From: a virus
DNA length: 23,817 nucleotides
Reading direction: 5' to 3' (one strand)
Virus record (IMG/VR): IMGVR_UViG_3300009094_000071
Coordinates: 1-23,817 of that record
Both the position numbers and the translations under genes were made by a program. The number at the start of each line of letters is the position of its first letter. Position 1 is the first letter of the stretch. This document shows, piece after piece, positions 16,156 through 23,802 of the stretch. The notes under the pieces were generated by a model, which was not told the origin of the DNA, made no database searches, and saw nothing but the letters and a program-made list of their open reading frames with translations.

Positions 16156-16248
16156 TTAAGCGGCGCTCTGCTCGCTTGGGGCAACGGTGACATAGACTGC
16201 GTCCACACTGCAAGCGGACTTACCGACCCGGACGGCATCTTTTACCAC
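16156..16248 (-). CDS. Possible 30-aa mini-ORF between ParB-like gene and unknown protein
   Basis: A 30-codon frame starts with GTG at 16248, overlapping the last codons of the ParB-like gene by seven bases, and ends 12 bases before the next ATG. It reads VVKDAVRVGKSACSVDAVYV, then TVAPSEQSAA. It fills most of the 98-base gap in an otherwise tightly packed operon, but it has no clear Shine-Dalgarno sequence of its own and no family I know. It could be translated by coupling from the ParB-like gene, or may be chance. Confidence 0.25.
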   Translation of the reverse strand: MVKDAVRVGKSACSVDAVYVTVAPSEQSAA

Positions 16249-16904
16249 TCTGTGCGGGGAAATGCCTGGTCGCGACGCACGCGAGTGGCGAACTTTTGCA
16301 CAACCCTTTTTGACGGCAGCGACCTAAATAACGCTGCTACCCCCGACCCATACTTTAGAAGCCACTCAATAAGACGCATGCGAGGTAACGAGACGTCCTT
16401 CGAAGCGCAATAGGCAAGTATTTTTAGCGCATTGCCCATTAGCGCCGCGGGCACAACAGTTTCACGCATCCCGATCTCTCGGGCTCTCTCTTCGGACAAG
16501 TGTTTTACCAACCACCCGATCGCGTGGCTGGTGTTTGCCGGCGCGCGTTCAAGGAATTCTTCCGCCGCGCGACCGTTTAGGCAGCTCCAGCCATAGAACC
16601 AATCAGCGCCCCCAACCCTTCGAGTGTCGCCGTTAAGGGCAGCCCAGTGCACCTCTGCCCTGCCGTCATCGACGATGATGCACGGGACGCGAGCGATGCC
16701 AAGCGCTCGCGCGCTAGCTAAGCGCCGGTGGCCGTCGCACGCGATGTACCCCTGGCCGTTCTTTGCCACCACTAACGGGGTAACGATCCCGAGCTCGGCA
16801 ATACTTTTTGCCAGTCCAGCAATAGCTGTATCGGTCTGACGCCTAGGGTTCTGAACCACGCTATCGTGAATTTGATCGACGGCAATGTCCTTGATCGTAG
16901 TCAT
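16242..16904 (-). CDS. ParB/sulfiredoxin-like domain protein, 220 aa
   Basis: Residues 1-85 form a ParB-N/sulfiredoxin-like domain: IKDIAVDQIHDSVVQNPRRQ, a helix AIAGLAKSIAELGIVTPLVV, then GYIACDGHRRLASARALGI with the G-H-R-R motif that in ParB proteins lies in the nucleotide-binding site, and VPCIIVDDG. The C-terminal 130 residues are helical (NTSHAIGWLVKHLSEERAREIG, VSLPRMRLIEWLLKYGSGVAALF) and basic at the end; whether they include a helix-turn-helix is unclear. I chose ATG at 16904, preceded by AGTGGTGA; a GTG at 16934 would add ten residues but lies in a structured leader. Phage ParB-like proteins range from DNA-binding CTPases to nucleases, so the activity is open. Neighbours are terminase and portal. 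Confidence 0.75.
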   Translation of the reverse strand: MTTIKDIAVDQIHDSVVQNPRRQTDTAIAGLAKSIAELGIVTPLVVAKNGQGYIACDGHRRLASARALGIARVPCIIVDDGRAEVHWAALNGDTRRVGGADWFYGWSCLNGRAAEEFLERAPANTSHAIGWLVKHLSEERAREIGMRETVVPAALMGNALKILAYCASKDVSLPRMRLIEWLLKYGSGVAALFRSLPSKRVVQKFATRVRRDQAFPRTEW

Positions 16905-17034
16905 GTGTTCACCACTGCTTTGTTTTGACGACACAAGACAGCGCGCGATGAGTGGTGAAACTGCGCTCGCGACGTTACCGTCAGCGAGATCGCGCGCTGT
17001 CTTGTATCTGTTTCACCACTGAAACAGAGACTAG
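16905..17034 (-). promoter_or_regulatory. Structured leader / parS-like repeat region upstream of the ParB-like gene
   Basis: Between terminase and the ParB-like gene lie nested repeats. A perfect 17-base inverted repeat, ACAAGACAGCGCGCGAT (16933-16949) and its complement (16989-17005), encloses AGTGGTGAAAC (16951-16961). Complements of that element sit outside on both sides: GTTTCACCACT at 17010-17020 and TTCACCACT at 16908-16916, the latter in the ParB ribosome site. The upstream copy is also part of CTGTTTCACCACTGAAACAG (17008-17027), an 8-base-arm palindrome whose arms equal those of chromosomal parS. It could act as an RNA switch or as ParB binding sites. Confidence 0.6.
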
Positions 17035-17054
17035 CATACAAATCGAAGTCTGGC

Positions 17055-18666: not shown

Positions 18667-18710
18667 GTGGCCACCCCGTACACACATACCCCCCAGGGTG
18701 TCAACTCTTA

Positions 18711-18735
18711 CCTACCGCCCACCCCCCTACCCTCC
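18711..18735 (-). other. G-rich tract, possible G-quadruplex
   Basis: Read on the minus strand, this 25-base stretch contains G-runs of 2, 3, 6, 3, 2 and 2 separated by one or two bases (core GGGTAGGGGGGTGGG). It could form a two- or three-layer quadruplex in the transcribed-strand sense, about 45 bases before the ribbon-helix-helix gene start. High local GC could also produce it by chance. Confidence 0.35.
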
Positions 18736-18892
18736 TAACTCGCCTATCTCGATACCCGGCCCGTTCACACCCGCTCACATGGCCAGGGGGTGATGGAACT
18801 CATGCGTTGCCCATCCCCTACCCGCCCACCGTTTTTTGCTGGCGGATTTCTGTTGAGCCCACGGATACCCCGAAACTGTTTTCCAAAATGCA

Positions 18893-18911
18893 ACACCGTG
18901 CATCACGGTGT
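18893..18911. repeat. 8-bp-arm hairpin ACACCGTG-CAT-CACGGTGT
   Basis: This perfect inverted repeat with a 3-base loop contains one copy of the local GCATCAC motif in its right half. It is not followed by a T-run on either strand, so it is not a typical intrinsic terminator. It could be a protein-binding site for the replication or packaging machinery. Confidence 0.55.
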
Positions 18912-18958
18912 CAGCACTGCGCGGTGATGACAGGAAAGTCGAGTCTTCATCGTCGGTT

Positions 18959-18985
18959 ACATCACGTGCATCACTGGCATCACTG
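18959..18985. repeat. Three tandem 9-bp iterons
   Basis: Units ACATCACGT, GCATCACTG and GCATCACTG follow one another without gaps; the last two are identical. They are followed by an AT-rich patch (TAATTAAAAACA). Tandem short repeats next to AT-rich DNA are a common form of replication initiator site. Confidence 0.5.
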
Positions 18986-19158
18986 TAATTAAAAACACTA
19001 CTAGGGGGCGGTACTACTAGGTAGAGGGGTGCTGCAGGGGTCTCTATTAGGGAGGTGGCGATGCTGACGATGCGGGTGATGAGAAACGGGAAAAGGTGAG
19101 CAACTGCGACAGGTTGCGCAGCATCACCGGAATAAGGGTGTGGCGATGCGGATTGATG

Positions 19159-23704: not shown

Positions 23705-23802
23705 AGGTCAAAATGACCTTATGCCAGGTCAATATGACATGTATGCAAGGGTACTCTTATATATTACAGGTCAAAACGACCTTGACAGGGTCAAAATGAC
23801 CT
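23705..23802. promoter_or_regulatory. Array of four AGGTCA-nnn-TGACCT operators
   Basis: Four 15-base palindromes: AGGTCAAAATGACCT at 23705-23719, AGGTCAATATGACAT at 23726-23740, AGGTCAAAACGACCT at 23768-23782 and GGGTCAAAATGACCT at 23788-23802. Their starts are 21, 42 and 20 bases apart, so all face nearly the same side of the helix. An extra half-site (GGTCA) abuts the first. The last two flank and fill the promoter at 23782-23809. This is the form of a cooperative phage repressor operator; the repressor is not in the window. Confidence 0.75.

Follow-up and report, generated by a model that had tools for sequence, protein, structure and literature searches.

A structured leader with a possible ribosome-site pseudoknot ahead of an inserted ParB-like gene in a phage capsid-gene cluster

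Results

The ParB-like gene and its leader

The DNA analysed here (the window) is the whole 23.8-kb stretch of an unclosed virus contig of IMG/VR type. Its minus strand carries, in this order, genes for a helicase and a VapE-type primase/helicase, terL, a ParB-like gene, a gene for a protein of 206 aa and a Mu-type portal gene, followed 3' of the portal by the head protease, the major head protein and further late genes. A portal-based search of genomes for a prophage and host gave no match. Between the end of terL (17055) and the start of the ParB-like gene (16904) lies a leader of 150 nt, the elements of which are listed here together with the gene and the inserted segment that holds them.

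17047-16193, minus strand: cassette of 855 bp that comprises the leader and the ParB-like gene and fills a variable slot flanked by terL and the next conserved gene
17037-16981, minus strand: candidate leader ORF of 18 codons (MLVSVSVVKQIQDSARSR, then a stop), spanning P1 and the 5' strand of P2, with no clear Shine-Dalgarno sequence
17028-17007, minus strand: P1 hairpin, a perfect 22-nt palindrome, TCTGTTTCA-GTGG-TGAAACAGA, with 9-bp arms
17020-17010, minus strand: element 2, AGTGGTGAAAC, complementary to the loop element at 11/11 positions, located in P1 in the stable fold
17008-16989, minus strand: P2 stem, 5' strand, pairing with 16949-16930
16988-16966, minus strand: P3 hairpin, CUCGC-U-GACG-GUAA-CGUC-GCGAG, 9 bp with one bulge and a GNRA-type GUAA tetraloop, inside the P2 loop
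16961-16951, minus strand: element 3, GTTTCACCACT, in the internal loop of P2, complementary to elements 2 and 4
16949-16930, minus strand: P2 stem, 3' strand
16916-16908, minus strand: element 4, AGTGGTGAA, complementary to the loop at 9/9 positions and containing the Shine-Dalgarno sequence GGTGA
16904-16242, minus strand: ParB-like gene, 220 aa

Residues 3-81 of the protein form a ParB_N domain (Pfam PF02195, E 2.1e-10), and hhalign coverage is confined to residues 2-96. Its C-terminal 136 aa show no convincing family match; a BLASTP pairwise alignment gives a hint that residues 137-164 pair with a ParB HTH, and a single-sequence AlphaFold model reached a pLDDT of 41 and was unusable. Searching with this single protein, we found no close homologs in viral contigs or genomes.

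Leader and gene lie in a variable slot

A near relative (IMGVR_UViG_2162886013_000049, here G001) has a TerL 94% identical to that of the window and aligned DNA blocks that are ~81-87% identical. In the blastn comparison (G001/L012), homology ends at window position 17048 and restarts at 16192, and the slot in between holds, in G001, 269 bp that are unrelated in sequence and unremarkable in folding energy. This insert (L012 1495-1763) contains, on the opposite strand, a 65-aa proline-rich ORF (MFKRNKPSAPPDRPVYG...) with no Pfam match. In the more distant relatives G002 and G003, terL is followed by the next gene, and there is no ParB-like match in the contig. The GC content is 56.5% in the insertion versus 60.5%, and third-position GC is 0.62 in the ParB-like gene versus 0.66-0.73 in its neighbours.

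The breakpoints with respect to G001, the absence of the gene from G002 and G003 and the lower GC thus identify leader and gene, on sequence grounds, as a moron-like cassette that fills a slot of variable content, rather than as a long-standing component of the late operon. The cassette is found in one phage and is missing from the corresponding position of a close relative. As in phage morons, an additional gene comes with an upstream element of its own, GC is lower and the content of the slot differs among close relatives; by contrast with morons, no promoter or terminator of its own can be recognised. A scan for sigma-70-like promoters found none. An intrinsic terminator was also considered and dropped, as the P2 stem is followed by GUCAAAAC, which has no U tract, and the minus-strand scan finds no terminator. 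The placement in a phage late operon, put forward in a previous sequence-only reading of this DNA, therefore has to be qualified, leader and gene being a lineage-specific insertion. The homologous phage loci lack the whole cassette, an absence that neither supports nor refutes the pairings described below.

The leader structure is strongly non-random

The sequence-only reading had noticed a perfect stem of 17 bp, which we find in place as the inner, continuously Watson-Crick part of a longer P2 of 20 pairs (19 Watson-Crick and one U.G). It had also proposed that the loop element GTTTCACCACT complements both the upstream AGTGGTGAAAC (11 nt) and the AGTGGTGAA that covers the ribosome site (9 nt), and both complementarities are exact. 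Missing from that description were P1, which holds element 2, P3 with its GUAA tetraloop, and the fact that the first pairing, and not the second alone, crosses the main stem as a pseudoknot.

A 20-bp stem occurred in 0 of 2000 first-order Markov simulations of the leader, in which the longest inverted repeat was 16, and P2 is the longest near-perfect inverted repeat within the window. In 2000 leader simulations, the complementarities had p values of 0.0012 (9 nt) and 0.0001 (11 nt). Folding gives z = -5.4, with 0 of 200 shuffles equally stable, and the three copies of AGTGGTGAA in the 23.8-kb window, where 0.13 are expected, are all at the leader. The leader structure is thus real and strongly non-random. 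Two of its traits are RNA-like: the sole non-Watson-Crick pair in P2 is G.U, and the P3 loop is of the GNRA type.

Only one of the two alternative pairings fits the stable fold

The stable fold, in which P1, P2 and P3 coexist, was evaluated at -56.7 kcal/mol. Pairing of elements 2 and 3, together with P3, reaches -26.8 kcal/mol and is thus ~30 kcal/mol worse; it clashes with P2, whose 20 bp would have to be crossed by a linker of just 1 nt. When the transcript is folded step by step as it grows, P1 forms ahead of element 3, initially extended by pairing of GAUACAAG with upstream sequence, and the 2:3 pairing appears at no step. The idea of an RNA switch that alternates between the two pairings is not supported by these results.

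The pairing of element 3 with element 4 is, by contrast, compatible with P1, P2 and P3, and the element 3 loop is mostly unpaired in the predicted ensemble. Of the two alternatives, the modelling thus leaves the loop:Shine-Dalgarno pseudoknot as the only one that fits the stable fold. The claim that this second pairing would be a pseudoknot is correct, since it crosses the main stem, but the distinction drawn between the two is not, as 2:3 also crosses P2. GGTGA sits 4 nt 5' of the ATG at 16904, and its duplex with the anti-Shine-Dalgarno sequence is valued at -7.4 kcal/mol, versus -12.3 kcal/mol for the loop:Shine-Dalgarno duplex, a value that does not include a pseudoknot penalty. The 13-nt linker has to cross the whole 20-bp stem, which it could do if nearly extended, and the pseudoknot is therefore a possible structure. 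The loop is therefore complementary to the Shine-Dalgarno sequence beyond chance and is free in the stable fold, as would be needed to sequester a ribosome-binding site.

Related leaders

None of the 80 distant phage ParB loci recovered with an alignment as the query has a comparable leader. In the 200 nt 5' of 79 other ParB-like genes of phages, inverted repeats reach 13 at most, versus 20 here. Among 2.9 million viral contigs, the exact P1, P1-loop and P2 patterns have no other occurrence; the 16-nt core of P1 is found in 11 other viral contigs, none of them near a ParB-like gene, probably by chance. Comparison of the leader DNA with phages and plasmids yielded chance-level matches only, and a covariance model of the leader, run against 98 loci and 30 whole contigs, returned the window itself as its sole match. 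Rfam at the gathering threshold gave no match for the leader, and at a permissive threshold matches were at chance level only, the best scoring 15 bits versus a threshold of 64. A self-cleaving ribozyme was dropped for want of an Rfam match, and an integron attC site was dropped as no GTTRRRY-type core sites were seen by eye.

Discussion

In this study, we have described an inserted phage cassette in which a structured leader precedes a ParB-like gene. The insertion, the hairpins as predicted folds, and the complementarity with its rarity are established. Our preferred explanation, which we hold tentatively and at somewhat less than even confidence, is that the leader lowers translation of the accessory ParB-fold gene, most likely via the 3:4 pseudoknot. 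A structured 5' leader would have arrived together with the gene, and its transcript would form three hairpins, namely P1, the 20-bp P2 and P3 with its GUAA cap. P2 and P3 would keep the anti-Shine-Dalgarno GUUUCACCACU single-stranded in an asymmetric loop, from which it could bend back to pair with AGUGGUGAA, which covers the ribosome site, and the resulting pseudoknot would reduce initiation, limiting ParB-like translation from read-through late transcripts. We infer the fold in the cell, the formation of the pseudoknot and the repression of translation. Any relief of the repression might come from a bound protein, translation of the leader ORF, processing within P2 or a transcript that begins within the leader. 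In favour of such a lock count the folding z-score, the rarity of the stem and of the 9-nt complementarity, the mostly unpaired loop, the more favourable energy of the loop:Shine-Dalgarno duplex, the RNA-like traits of P2 and P3, the shorter inverted repeats 5' of the 79 other genes, and the location of the Shine-Dalgarno GGUGA inside the stretch complementary to the loop. Against it count the failure of pattern, BLAST and covariance-model searches to find a homologous leader in the collections searched, the lack of an Rfam match and the nearly extended linker.

P1 also resembles a ParB-family DNA site, which the RNA reading does not predict and which weighs against it. The leader could accordingly be a DNA site for the adjacent ParB-like protein, used for autoregulation or in a centromere-like role, the RNA complementarity being a by-product of repeated inverted sites; from the sequence, we judge this unlikely, though worth serious attention. 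The half-sites would be the palindrome GTTTCAG-tg-GTGAAAC, an inverted GTTTCAC in the loop and a partial copy at the start codon. Those of P1 match parS (TGTTTCAC/GTGAAACA) and VirB sites and lie directly 5' of a ParB_N gene, and no other TTTCA-N0-8-TGAAA palindrome exists in the window; among the regions upstream of 79 other phage ParB genes, a single one has such a palindrome. The parS site is a 16-bp sequence, TGTTTCACGTGAAACA, with a spacer of 0 between its 8-bp half-sites; the P1 half-sites match it at 7/8 and 8/8 positions, but with 2 bp extra, and a true parS is absent from the window with <=2 mismatches allowed. The locus shares with parS and VirB sites the TGTTTCA/TGAAACA half-sites arranged as an inverted repeat beside a ParB-family gene, but its spacer of 2 is 2 longer than in parS and 1 longer than in VirB sites, and there is one full palindrome only. 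VirB sites (ATTTCAG-t-ATGAAAT) have a spacer of 1, and when 2 bp were added to a VirB site only a modest effect remained (PMC6410309). The DNA-site explanation further leaves P2 and P3 unaccounted for, their sequences being unrelated to ParB sites. The HTH of the ParB-like protein is putative, no sigma-70-like promoter was found, the 16-nt palindrome core recurs in the 11 other contigs away from ParB-like genes, and the GTGA of element 2 is equally explained as a Shine-Dalgarno copy.

The 20-bp near-perfect P2 beside P1 is a plausible double-stranded substrate for RNase III; it stands exactly between terL and the inserted gene and, with no U tract, is not an intrinsic terminator in the minus-strand direction, so that it might serve as a processing site or mRNA insulator, keeping the terL mRNA apart from the inserted gene and stabilising or trimming RNA ends. 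The complementarity to the Shine-Dalgarno sequence would then be incidental, and we consider this improbable, as it leaves the 9-nt and 11-nt complementarities (p ~0.001 and 0.0001) unexplained. It is quite improbable, too, that the inverted repeats are a functionless relic, left by template switching or recombination on arrival of the cassette, although the leader is at one margin of a foreign insertion that has lower GC and no relatives, and the same slot in G001 is filled with unrelated DNA. The ParB-like frame is intact and pairing is perfect across several nested hairpins, both of which speak against long neutral drift; a recent event would still fit. We regard as very improbable an ermC-like leader-peptide attenuator (1:2, 2:3, 3:4) driven by ribosomes on the 18-codon ORF. 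The four interlocking segments CTGTTTCA, AGTGGTGAAAC, GTTTCACCACT and AGTGGTGAA are present, and the ORF extends over segments 1 and 2 as well as the 5' strand of P2. However, 17% of simulated leaders contain such an ORF by chance, the one here has no clear Shine-Dalgarno sequence, and the 2:3 state carries the penalty of ~30 kcal/mol relative to P1+P2+P3 and is absent from step-wise folding.

Anti-Shine-Dalgarno/anti-anti-Shine-Dalgarno translational riboswitches and ermC-type attenuators have Shine-Dalgarno-like copies around one anti-Shine-Dalgarno element, an arrangement seen here in elements 2 and 4 around element 3. The present leader differs from them in that it has no ligand-binding fold known to Rfam, in that 2:3 is strongly disfavoured and in that the anti-Shine-Dalgarno is confined to a loop closed by a very stable stem. 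In the case of gene 32 of phages T4, T2 and RB69, a leader pseudoknot takes part in autogenous translational repression (PMC3014915). As in T4, a phage leader pseudoknot (a predicted one here) lies 5' of a gene for a nucleic-acid-binding-type protein and is proposed to restrict the ribosome site. The T4 pseudoknot, however, is situated 67 nt upstream, where it nucleates protein binding, whereas the predicted pseudoknot here itself includes the Shine-Dalgarno sequence; the proteins belong to different families, there is no sequence relation between the leaders, and by no tested feature is the present leader a member of the gene 32 family.

If the proposed translational lock works, a newly inserted gene with no promoter of its own would be kept quiet in a highly transcribed capsid-gene cluster, and the silencing RNA structure would travel with the inserted gene. 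If instead the DNA reading is true, the range of ParB-family sites would widen to include a spacer of 2 nt, for a ParB that stands alone in a phage. There is a slim chance that the cassette represents a new class of phage cis-regulatory RNA, one that brings its own pseudoknot lock and presents the anti-Shine-Dalgarno from the loop of a 20-bp stem; the ParB-fold protein under its control might bind it, and the repeated element would then be both RNA lock and ParB-type DNA site. As a single case with no relatives, the locus has limited general importance until more examples are found.

Other features of the window

A second ParB/Srx-type fold in this phage is possibly provided by the N-terminal extension of the head protease ORF (14045-12087, minus strand), which contains the motif NGHHR (LYIHNGHHRAVAGIERG) and gives a weak VapB-like match in Pfam. 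5' of terL, a short ORF of ~52 aa (~18666-18508, minus strand; MAAARAQRGGGRGRRLDARVVLRIESDRLRRWQDWARG...) is ribbon-helix-helix-like, has no Pfam match and could encode a small terminase or a regulator. Between the VapE-type gene and terL, ~450 bp (18700-19150, minus strand) are apparently non-coding and rich in short GTGATG/CTAGTAGTA repeats and G-rich runs, and this region is a candidate origin or packaging site. At the contig end, the palindrome GGTCAAAA(C/T)GACC is present in three copies within 100 bp (23706-23801), with a degenerate copy near 23727; the array lies 3' of a TTGACA hexamer, has a chance expectation of 0.03, and looks like the operator array of an early or immunity region.
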